Shown here: positions 3,027 to 5,520 of the stretch, piece by piece
Numbering within the stretch: the stretch's first letter is position 1
Layout: each line of letters starts with the position of its first letter
Assembly: GCA_913050325.1 (NCBI GenBank)
Contig: CAJWZP010000004.1
Location: forward strand, 62,001-126,000
DNA from: an uncultured bacterium
GTDB lineage: Bacteria > Desulfobacterota_D > UBA1144
Length of the DNA stretch: 64,000 bases
Direction: 5' to 3'
Notes under the pieces: model-generated
What the model was told of the DNA's origin: nothing
The model's database searches: none
What the model saw: the letters and a program-made list of their open reading frames with translations, nothing else
Program-made: the position numbers and the translations under genes

Positions 3027-3833
3027 TTAAAACTCATCTCTCATTTCTCTTAATAATTTAAATCTTTCTTCAATATTTAAATTTTGAAAATCTTCTTTAT
3101 TTTTTAACAAATCTAGAAAAGATAACTCATCGATTCTAAAAAAAGGGTTATATAATTTCTCAAAACTAATGTCTTTTAATTCTGATAACTTATCTTGATC
3201 TTTTACATCGGTAAATTTTATTATTTCATTATAAAAATCAGTATCATTATGAATTATATTTTTTAAAAAATTTAAATTATTCATTAAATAATCGTGACCA
3301 GGTAATAAATAAAACTCATCAGGTAAATTTTTCATTTTGTGATGAATAGTTCTAAAAAGCATTGAGCAATCACCTCTGAATCTCACGTTTCCAGCACCAC
3401 AATTGAATACTGTATCTCCACAAAAGATATATTTATCTAAAATTATAGATATATGTTCGGGGCAATGGCCAGGTGTGTGTATTATCTTAATTGATTGATT
3501 ACCAAATTTTATAACATCATTTTCAAAAATATTATCAAATTCATAATCAAACAAATCTTTACAAAGATCATGGGCTCTAAGCTTAATCTGATACTTATTC
3601 ATAAAAAAAGAATTATATTTAATGTGATCTGGGTGTGCATGAGTATTTATAACAAGCTCAGGAATTAAATTATTTTTTGAAATAATCTCTAATATTTGAT
3701 TTTTATCAAGAGGGTCAATTATTATAGCTTTTTTAGTTTGCTTACATTCTATTAAATAATTAATATTTTTATCACTATTTTCCACAAGAAATCTATAAAT
3801 ATTAAATTCCAAATCTTCAATCTTTTCATACAT
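3027..3833 (-). CDS. MBL-fold hydrolase, glyoxalase II / persulfide-dioxygenase-like
   Basis: Metallo-beta-lactamase fold protein of 268 aa. Metal ligands are clear: THAHPDH at residues 64-70, GHCPEH with His123, GDTVF with Asp140, and PGHDY with His180. This is the layout of glyoxalase II (hydroxyacylglutathione hydrolase) and relatives, and the C-terminal NPFFR stretch also fits. However, the loop after GDTVF reads [12 protein letters not shown] instead of the usual GCGRFFEG, so the substrate is uncertain; a persulfide dioxygenase or another thioester hydrolase is possible. It is first in a two-gene unit with metH, 2 bases apart, and divergent from the riboswitch-controlled unit. The ATG has no Shine-Dalgarno site but has TATAAT exactly 6 bases upstream. 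Confidence 0.8.
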
Positions 3834-3845: not shown

Positions 3846-3900
3846 ACCTTCATTTTAAAATCTTTTTGTTGTTTTTTAAGTTAAATTTATTACAATTATA

Positions 3901-4001
3901 AAGTCGTCATTTAACTCTACTTGCAACGACTTAAAATAAATGCTAAACGGAGAAAAGGTTTTTAAAATCCTTTCCTCTTCGAGTTACATAATTGATAGGA
4001 G
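3901..4001 (+). promoter_or_regulatory. SAM-II/SAM-V-class riboswitch with expression platform
   Basis: The 5' leader of the threonine-synthase-like gene matches the SAM-II/SAM-V aptamer as I remember it. Stem P1 is a perfect 7-bp helix (AAGTCGT 3901-3907 with ACGACTT 3926-3932). The loop holds ATTTAAC...TTGCA and the 3' tail AATAAATGCTAAACGGAG. Possible H-type pseudoknot pairs: CTCT 3915-3918 with GGAG 3949-3952, and GCA 3923-3925 with TGC 3941-3943. Downstream, GAG-A-AAAGG (3950-3958) can pair with CCTTT-C-CTC (3969-3977). The competing segment TTCCT (3972-3976) can instead pair with the Shine-Dalgarno AGGAG (3997-4001). Ligand binding would therefore free the anti-Shine-Dalgarno segment and switch translation off (inference). 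The choice between SAM-II and SAM-V is not settled. Confidence 0.82.
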
Positions 4002-4007
4002 TACGTT

Positions 4008-5237
4008 ATGTCTTTTGTAACTTGTTTAAAATGTATAGATTGCAATCCAGCTTGTGAATTTAAAAAAGAAGCTTTGTATGTATGTGATGACTGTTTTGGT
4101 CCGTTAGAACCCTGCTATGATTATGAAACTATAAAAAAAGAACTTACAATTGGTAAAATTTTAGAAAGGCCAAAGAATATGTGGAGGTATAAAGAACTCT
4201 TACCCATAGATAAGGAGCCGACAGTTGGCTTAAATACAGGTTTTACACCTCTTATAAAAGCAAATAATCTTGCGGAAGTTTTAGGTGTTAAAAATTTATA
4301 TATAAAAAATGATGGTGTAAATTTTCCCTCTTTATCTTTCAAAGATAGAGTTGTGGCTGTTGCCCTTTCCAAAGCTATAGAGCTTGGATTTGATACCGTA
4401 GGATGCGCTTCTACAGGTAATTTAGCAAATTCAGTTGCTGCGCATTCAGCATCAGCAAAACTTAATAGTTTCATTTTTATACCCTCTAATCTGGAAGAAG
4501 CAAAGATTCTTGGAACTTCGATATATGGAAAAAATGTAATAGGTGTAAATGGAAATTACGATGAAGTTAACAGATTGTGTACAGAAGTACTAGGTTCAAA
4601 TAAATGGGGTTTTGTTAATATTAATTTAAGGACCTATTATGCAGAAGGATCTAAAACTGTTGGCTATGAAATAGTTGAACAGCTAGGATGGAAAGCTCCT
4701 AAGAATATTGTAGTTTGCATGGCTTCTGGATCATTGTTAACAAAAATATATAAGTCAATTAATGAACTTGTTAATTTAGGATTAATAGATGACAACCAAA
4801 CCAAAATTTACGGAGCTCAAGCTTCAGGTTGTTCACCAATATCTACAGCTGTTAAAAATGGTTGGGAAACTTTTAAGCCTGTTAAACCTGATACTATTGC
4901 CAAATCATTAGCAATTGGAAATCCAGCAGATGGGCTTAATGCAATTAATTTATTAAATGATATAGATTCTTATTCAGAAGATGTTTCAGATGATGAAATT
5001 GTTAGCGCAATGAAGTTGCTGGCTGAGACAGAAGGAATATTTACTGAAACAGCTGGTGGCGTAACTTTGGGTTGTACAATCAAAATGATAGAAAACGGAA
5101 AAATTAATAAGGATGAAGATCTGGTTCTAGTTATAACAGGAAATGGTTTAAAAACTCAGGATCCACTTATAAATAATATCAAAAAACCATTTATAATAAA
5201 TCCAAGATTAGATGAATTTAATAAAATAAATTACTAA
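4008..5237 (+). CDS. Threonine synthase-like PLP enzyme, probably SAM-regulated
   Basis: Fold-type II PLP enzyme of 409 aa resembling threonine synthase, which converts O-phosphohomoserine to threonine. An N-terminal cysteine-rich, zinc-ribbon-like segment (Cys6, 9, 12, 16, 26, 29) is followed by the PLP lysine motif PSLSFKDR (Lys112) and the phosphate-binding STGNLANS. AGGAG lies 6 bases before the ATG. It follows a SAM riboswitch and is 10 bases ahead of a CysO-like sulfur carrier. Repression by SAM makes little sense for threonine supply, because high SAM should not shut threonine synthesis. I infer a role in sulfur transfer, perhaps O-phosphohomoserine plus protein thiocarboxylate to homocysteine. 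Plain threonine synthase remains possible; family assignment is firm, substrate is not. Confidence 0.85.
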   Translation: MSFVTCLKCIDCNPACEFKKEALYVCDDCFGPLEPCYDYETIKKELTIGKILERPKNMWRYKELLPIDKEPTVGLNTGFTPLIKANNLAEVLGVKNLYIKNDGVNFPSLSFKDRVVAVALSKAIELGFDTVGCASTGNLANSVAAHSASAKLNSFIFIPSNLEEAKILGTSIYGKNVIGVNGNYDEVNRLCTEVLGSNKWGFVNINLRTYYAEGSKTVGYEIVEQLGWKAPKNIVVCMASGSLLTKIYKSINELVNLGLIDDNQTKIYGAQASGCSPISTAVKNGWETFKPVKPDTIAKSLAIGNPADGLNAINLLNDIDSYSEDVSDDEIVSAMKLLAETEGIFTETAGGVTLGCTIKMIENGKINKDEDLVLVITGNGLKTQDPLINNIKKPFIINPRLDEFNKINY

Positions 5238-5247
5238 GGAGAATATA

Positions 5248-5520
5248 ATGTCAAAAATTAGAATACCTACACCACTAAGAAGGCTAACAAATGAAAAAGA
5301 TGAAGTTGAATCAAATGCATCATCTATCAGTGAACTAGTTGTTGATTTAGAAGAACAATTTCCTGGCATAAAAGATAGGTTATGTGAAGATGATGGAACA
5401 ATCAGAAAATTCATCAATATTTATGTTAATGATGAAGACATAAGATTTCTTGACGGTGTAAATACTAAAATTAATAATGAAGATATTGTTTCAATTATTC
5501 CCGCAATAGCAGGGGGTTAA
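5248..5520 (+). CDS. CysO-like ThiS/MoaD-family sulfur-carrier protein
   Basis: Ubiquitin-fold sulfur carrier of 90 aa ending in the Gly-Gly tail (AIAGG) that is adenylated and converted to a thiocarboxylate in this family. The segment NIYVNDEDIRFLDG closely matches Mycobacterium CysO, which donates sulfur to the PLP enzyme CysM for cysteine synthesis, as I recall that sequence. It starts 10 bases after the threonine-synthase-like gene with a good AAGGAG site, so the two are almost surely one transcript under the SAM riboswitch. No JAMM (Mec+) peptidase or E1-like activating enzyme is nearby. The sulfur acceptor is inferred to be the product of the upstream enzyme. Confidence 0.88.
   Translation: MSKIRIPTPLRRLTNEKDEVESNASSISELVVDLEEQFPGIKDRLCEDDGTIRKFINIYVNDEDIRFLDGVNTKINNEDIVSIIPAIAGG

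Follow-up and report, generated by a model that had tools for sequence, protein, structure and literature searches.

We conclude, with a probability of about 0.5, that a SAM-II riboswitch of divergent sequence, with a translational OFF platform in which the conserved strand GAGUUA would act as the switching element, precedes a metM-metO-like homocysteine synthase operon in the window (the whole stretch of 64,000 nucleotides analysed here; the leader and operon features described below are on its + strand). The genome of the window (about 1 Mb, 92.7% complete) is taken to belong to the Dadabacteria, a class placed by NCBI in Thermodesulfobacteriota, and the isolate names suggest a marine origin. 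For the comparison, 29 homologous leaders, all from one Dadabacteria family, were used: 14 at ThrC-like gene loci (class A) and 15 before cysteine-rich micro-ORFs (class B). One further copy (L079, in genome G011), whose aptamer ends after stem P1, was left out. The strands were named as follows: strand 1, UAACUCU (3912-3918); strand 2, GGAG (3949-3952); strand 3, CCUUUCCUC (3969-3977); and strand 5, GAGUUACA (3981-3988).

Of the 13 other family genomes, 12 carry close relatives (76-95%) of the window's ThrC-like gene (4008-5237), G012 having a distant ThrC-like paralog only; counting the window and the two copies in G005, there are 14 such loci, and the leader is present at all 14. Searches with the Rfam model RF00521 yielded 15 further complete leaders and one truncated copy, in six genomes of the genera g2 and g4. 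The leader model R1 was built from the 29 leaders, and its matches in 57 genomes of the phylum were those 29 and the truncated copy; note that matches to the source leaders are expected by construction, and stricter filters were applied. In this search, all 14 family genomes had the module (at least one copy each), against 0 of 43 genomes outside the family. Two weak RF00521 matches inside the family (L071 and L080) were without the motif and were rejected.

The SAM-II-like aptamer occupies 3897-3956. In the covariance-model scan of Rfam (cmscan), it scored 25.6 bits with RF00521 (SAM_alpha; cut-off, 36) and 27.4 bits with RF01726 (SAM-II long loop; cut-off, 44). Every copy of the module lies below both cut-offs: that of RF00521 was passed in 0 of 60 genomes (best copy, 35.8 of 36) and that of RF01726 in 0 of the 14 family genomes (best, 29.5 of 44). 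Since comparable RF00521 scores occur elsewhere (26.7 bits in G028, which belongs to another family, and matches at E <= 0.1 in 3 of 14 control genomes), the score alone is unconvincing. As to the architecture, stem P1 is formed by GUCGU (3903-3907) and ACGAC (3926-3930), extended by AA (3901-3902) with UU (3931-3932), and its core of five pairs is formed in all 29 leaders. The P1 loop holds strand 1 (UAACUC in 29 of 29), within which CUCU (3915-3918) is the 5' strand of the pseudoknot P2, which joins the P1 loop to the 3' tail as in SAM-II. The conserved core motif UGCUAAA is located at 3941-3947 (UGCUAA in 29 of 29), and the conserved loop, AUUU-AC with UUGCA, is also present in the cmscan alignments and invariant columns, with one departure from the consensus (A for G in AUUUGAC, that is, AUUUG to AUUUA). 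The promoter-like hexamers TTGTTT (3869-3874) and TACAAT (3891-3896) lie just 5' of P1; with a simple pattern list, the distance from the start of the -10-like hexamer to GUCGU was 10-20 nt in 28 of 29 leaders and 11-13 nt in 24, in agreement with the promoter placement just before P1 that the available text of PMC1273637 records for SAM-II. SAM-V was rejected, as RF01826 had no match with E <= 10 at 3897-3956.

An earlier note, made from the letters of the window, had placed a SAM riboswitch here, and the conserved core, P1 and P2 support a leader of the SAM-II type, though below the Rfam cut-offs. We regard it as probably a divergent SAM-II riboswitch candidate, with predicted binding of SAM. 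It shares with SAM-II (RF00521 and RF01726) P1, the loop, UGCUAAA, P2, the promoter before P1, and a methionine-type gene downstream; in contrast to SAM-II, its Shine-Dalgarno (SD) sequence is outside P2, 44 nt downstream, behind an added hairpin (P3) and the GAGUUA element. The SAM-II class was described in Alphaproteobacteria, and the Dadabacteria copies would place control of this type in a lineage outside that group. The translational OFF control proposed here resembles that of the Sinorhizobium meliloti metA leader, also SAM-II; in the accessible part of PMC9373788, the SD (GAGG) of metA is part of the riboswitch and a terminator is located between AUG1 and AUG2, whereas the window leader has neither an SD within the riboswitch nor a terminator.

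In the window, P2 consists of four pairs (one G-U) between strand 2 and CUCU (3915-3918), with GGAG at exactly the position that the earlier note had given for it. Across the 29 leaders, P2 is 96.6% paired and shows no double changes; it is therefore conserved rather than proven by covariation. Strand 2 also forms the base of P3 (3949-3978), where its partner is 3975-3978. The second hairpin of the earlier note, GAGAAAAGG (3950-3958) with CCTTTCCTC (3969-3977), corresponds to P3 and is conserved and covarying; eight of its nine positions pair, and the internal mismatch A3953-C3974 had gone unmentioned. In the 29-leader alignment, P3 (3949-3958 with 3969-3978) has 12 pairs, seven of which are changed on both sides, and 95.7% of the cells are paired. 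P1 and P3 together have 47 double-change cells (shuffled mean, 18.0; 0 of 500 shuffles as high), the paired fraction and the covariation score were likewise reached by 0 of 500 shuffles, and sliding the partner destroys the signal. In an anchored count, the paired share of the P3 cells is 97.9%, a value that 0 of 2000 shuffles reached (shuffled value, 93.6%), and all 29 leaders leave the A3953-C3974 position unpaired (the bulge was placed there by hand in L065 and L074). Because both helices use 3949-3952, P2 and P3 are mutually exclusive, which the sequence comparison supports and which had been proposed before. Covariation in homologous leaders, suggested as a check, was thus seen for P3 but not for P2, and leaders that keep the aptamer while losing these pairings, which would have spoken against the proposal, were not found among the 29 for either helix.

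Downstream of P3 is element 5, C-GAGUUA-CA (3980-3988), the proposed switching strand. GAGUUA (3981-3986) is complementary to UAACUC (3912-3917) of the aptamer loop and is found in 26 of 29 leaders; the exceptions (GGGUUA in two and GAGUUG in one) still pair with the invariant UAACUC through G-U. Since UAACUC serves P2 as its 5' side, too, two strands can compete for the aptamer loop: strand 2 with SAM bound and strand 5 in the free aptamer. The 1:5 pairing is without double changes, strand 1 being invariant, and is therefore based on conservation and one-sided G-U changes. The other partner of element 5 is within the coding region: CGAGUUACA (3980-3988) can pair with UGUAACUUG (4016-4024, codons 3-6) in nine pairs, one of which is G-U, and in the predicted OFF ensemble of the window this stem encloses the SD AGGAG (3997-4001) and the start codon. 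The duplex has -10.4 kcal/mol, and 1 of 316 other ORF starts of the family is as good. In g1 and g3, the codon partner is in codons 3-6 (1-2 of 316 starts equal it); in g4, where the N-terminus differs, it is UAACUCA (UGACUCA in L024) in codons 2-4 (-7.4 to -7.5 kcal/mol; 5-6 of 316 as good); and in g2 it is weaker (-5.8 kcal/mol; 16 of 316). In L025 (g5), which keeps strand 5 or a variant that can still pair, no codon partner was found (193 of 316 starts as good); the 15 class B leaders have no consistent partner within the ORF's first 30 nt (16 to 316 of 316 as good). Since strand 5 in the window pairs more strongly with the codons (-10.4 kcal/mol) than with strand 1 (-4.3 kcal/mol), the ON state would have to be kinetic, needing co-transcriptional folding or ribosome loading.

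The alignment thus establishes that P1, P2 (1:2) and P3 (2:3) are conserved, that 1:2 excludes 2:3, and that strand 5, likewise conserved, is complementary to strand 1. We infer that GAGUUA alternates between the aptamer loop (ON) and the start region (OFF), for which the folding tests below were mixed. Without SAM, strand 1 would pair with strand 5 and strand 2 with strand 3; strand 5 could then not reach the start region, and ribosomes could load. With SAM, P2 would lock strand 1, the base of P3 would open, and strand 5 would be freed; the ribosome site would then be closed by strand 5 on codons 3-6 (class A, including the window), by the freed strand 3 on the SD, or by both, strand 3 on the SD being more likely in the micro-ORF leaders. 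The platform would in this way provide the aptamer loop with a second partner strand, one that can also contact the region of the start codon. The likely sense of the switch is OFF, through a translational platform, as in the earlier note, where bound SAM was to block translation; an intrinsic terminator was ruled out, because no U-run follows the hairpins, an absence that the note had also recorded.

In that note, the masking of the SD was assigned to TTCCT (3972-3976), released on loss of the second hairpin. TTCCT and AGGAG (3997-4001) can form five pairs, one of which is G-U; since 3949-3952 and the SD share GGAG, this complementarity is not independent evidence. In the predicted OFF ensemble of the window, the strand 3:SD score is 0.00 and GAGUUACA on the codons dominates, and the predicted cost of opening the SD is the same whether the P3 base is formed or lost (0.78 vs 0.78 kcal/mol). 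The assignment fared better in the micro-ORF leaders, where predicted strand 3:SD scores reach about 1. Opening the region from the SD to +18 in class A cost on average 9.53 kcal/mol in the OFF state, 7.05 with 2:3 and 1:5, and 9.17 with 2:3 only; the OFF state was costlier than 2:3+1:5 in 12 of 14 leaders (p = 0.0017) and than 2:3 only in 7 of 14 (p = 0.24), where this and the following p-values are uncorrected, the leaders are related, and SD to +18 is the only one of several accessibility tests that separates the states in class A. With either ON state, the class A effect was absent or reversed for the SD alone (3 of 14) and for SD to AUG (5 of 14). In class B, with three footprints (SD alone first), the OFF state was costlier than 2:3 in 13, 11 and 10 of 15 leaders (p = 0.005, 0.003 and 0.02) and than 2:3+1:5 in 10, 12 and 11 of 15 (p = 0.11, 0.01 and 0.05). 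For SD to AUG in all 29 leaders, the OFF state exceeded 2:3 in 16 (p = 0.006; the difference in cost is slight) and 2:3+1:5 in 15 (p = 0.48). The nested minimum-energy fold of the window holds P3 and the start-region stem together, and nested folding alone shows no switch there. On these models, masking in the window leader is probably due to GAGUUACA pairing with codons 3-6 and not to TTCCT pairing with the SD; the TTCCT route may hold for the copies in the sister genera and give an incomplete account of the window.

These results bear on a switch of four strands, that of the earlier note, in which P2 frees strand 3 for pairing with the SD and strand 5 has no switching role. The strand common to P2 and P3, the costlier SD to AUG with strand 3 free in 16 of the 29 leaders and the costlier SD in 13 of the 15 micro-ORF leaders all agree with it, as does the retention, in 26 of 29 leaders, of the C opposite the P3 mismatch, which would be expected of a base with a second pairing role. 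We nevertheless consider it rather unlikely: for the window, the 3:SD score is nil and the SD opening unchanged, the cost of the SD alone rises in only 3 of the 14 class A leaders, two leaders (L018 and L019) have AGGU as the SD, with the strand 3 complementarity weakened to -2.7 kcal/mol, and the conservation of GAGUUA is left unexplained.

A SAM-II aptamer that acts mainly through RNA stability or a block of ribosome standby, P3 and the start-region stem being formed at all times, would fit the nested fold, in which both are present, and S. meliloti SAM-II leaders stabilise mRNA at high SAM according to the accessible part of PMC9373788; as neither the shared strand 3949-3952 nor the conserved complementarity of 3912-3917 and 3981-3986 is explained by it, it appears improbable to us. 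We give hardly any credence to a decayed SAM-II-like sequence without riboswitch function. The low RF00521 score, with its equals in G028 and the control genomes, is what such a remnant would give, but at least one copy persists in every genome of the family, and the promoter spacing, the invariant core, the covarying hairpin and the sulfur gene context are against decay.

The reading preferred here, a SAM-II switch operated by strand 5, also concerns the genes that follow. From profile matches, the gene at 4008-5237 encodes a ThrC-like PLP enzyme (thrC, TIGR00260, 278 bits; PALP domain), probably a homocysteine synthase of the MetM type, and the adjoining gene at 5248-5520 encodes a GG-ending, ThiS/MoaD-like sulfur carrier that is probably MetO-like; a ThrC-like PLP enzyme adjoining a GG-ending carrier is the MetM/MetO arrangement. 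Related loci of the ThrC-like gene were taken as the best 80 of 379 stretches, 73 of them outside the family. A small ORF ending in GG was found within 700 nt downstream in 33 of the 80 by a simple scan, which misses some. An above-threshold SAM-I riboswitch was found 71-238 nt upstream of the gene match in 12 of the 73 non-family loci (6/20, 1/20, 4/20 and 1/13), ten in Planctomycetota, one in Terriglobia and one in FCPU426 (L088:2821-2929, L092:2775-2895, L145:2764-2867 and nine more loci); no SAM-I was found upstream in the other 61 of these 73 non-Dadabacteria loci. Because of this context, SAM-II here and SAM-I before homologs in other phyla, we read the gene as one of methionine biosynthesis rather than threonine biosynthesis, and an automatic annotation as threonine synthase is probably mistaken in these genomes. 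That the gene is the true threonine synthase was considered and set aside as improbable: a second paralog (29-31% identical) is matched in 13 of the 14 family genomes, and the SAM riboswitches speak for methionine. PF01053 (MetB/MetY/MetZ) had matches in 14 of 14 genomes, above its 27-bit cut-off in 11, all partial (at most 153 of 381 positions and 37.8 bits); we read them as other PLP enzymes. MetM-MetO is the best reading of the operon, and homocysteine synthesis is predicted. The homocysteine synthase MetM is known from Streptomyces, with a SAM riboswitch upstream of metM in S. albulus (Hasebe et al. 2024, as presented in the available text of PMC12172450), and the window has in common with S. 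albulus the ThrC-like enzyme, the neighbouring sulfur carrier and, by prediction, the SAM riboswitch upstream, which is SAM-II-like in the window. The same text describes a cyanobacterial ThrC that is 51.6% identical to MetM and has a neighbour resembling metO; that enzyme was seemingly not fully MetM-like in cells. In the window, a divergent gene for a GloB-like metallo-hydrolase (3027-3833) has its intergenic region in common with the riboswitch.

The 15 class B leaders (L043, L044, L045, L046, L047, L048, L065, L067, L072, L073, L074, L075, L076, L077 and L078), all from g2 and g4, are located at about 1500-1600 in most loci and at 1113-1206 in L075; some of them are on the - strand. In each, the module is directly 5' of a cysteine-rich micro-ORF of 21-33 codons (89 Cys in 418 codons altogether), with a similar SD spacing of 9-11 nt. 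Fourteen of the 15 micro-ORFs end in CCC plus one to three residues; in L074, which has unread bases, CCCC is further from the end. Asn codons directly after Cys are AAC in 15 of 15 cases (other Asn codons of the micro-ORFs, 16 of 36; neighbouring genes, 182 of 921), counts which are not independent because the micro-ORF sequences are related. The micro-ORFs end well before the SD of the downstream gene, which encodes a rhodanese-type sulfurtransferase with a SufU-like gene behind it (six leaders), SBP56 (three leaders; 108.9 bits with the MtoX model, below its cut-off of 650) or sulfite reductase (six leaders), one representative of each group having been judged. At the counterparts in g1, g3 and g5 (seven sulfurtransferase, six SBP56 and four sulfite reductase loci), R1 finds no copy of the module, and no such micro-ORF was found in the 330 nt upstream; at one of them, L199, there is an ORF at -326 that contains three Cys and looks unrelated. 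When GAGUUACAA was paired with the micro-ORF Cys codons, the gain over synonymous recoding was modest (13 to 164 of 300 recodings per leader as good), and the sequence that follows the micro-ORFs has a weak consensus fold (-1.15 kcal/mol).

For g2 and g4 we put forward, at slightly less than even odds, that the SAM-II module gates a cysteine-rich leader peptide in a two-input device, and that the module spread from metM, before which it stands alone in g1, g3 and g5. SAM would set the translation of the leader peptide, and the supply of Cys-tRNA would set its effect on the sulfur gene; if true, this would be a natural RNA circuit joining two sulfur signals, SAM and cysteine. Searches of one open-access library for SAM-II or other riboswitches together with Dadabacteria, cysteine leader peptides or uORFs listed no report of this combination. 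The proposed arrangement is like the B12 riboswitch of Mycobacterium tuberculosis ppe2, where a micro-ORF is gated and its start masked or unmasked by strands; the ligand and the RNA are different, and in ppe2 the uORF is required for translation of the gene, as stated in the accessible part of PMC11260477, whereas the Dadabacteria micro-ORFs are cysteine-rich and end well ahead of the gene's SD. A C-terminal cysteine cluster before cysteine-metabolic genes is also a property of the Cys-rich uORFs of mycobacteria, for which attenuation was speculated; unlike class B, they are described in the available text of PMC4633059 on leaderless mRNAs, with no riboswitch in front.

Several minor observations concern the same loci. 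In L079 (about 1509 to 1735), P1 and its loop are kept, the remaining aptamer and the platform are gone, but the SBP56 gene downstream and a micro-ORF with Cys are still present. The SBP56 loci L206 (G005) and L205 (G012), also in g2 and g4, showed no module and no micro-ORF before the gene. A hairpin stands directly before the SD of the downstream gene at L043:1744-1765 and at the same place in L045-L048 and L073-L076; its variants (CUGG..CCAG, CUGAC..GUCAG, CUAG..CUAG and UUGAC..GUCAA) show apparent covariation by eye. A box, GTTACTTTTTTTATACTACT, absent from the window, is found with at most two changes 5' of sulfurtransferase or SBP56 genes at nine of the 18 loci scanned, each of them from g1 or g3 (e.g., L200:269-288, L201:1406-1425 and L214:1422-1441), and is possibly a protein operator or a promoter.
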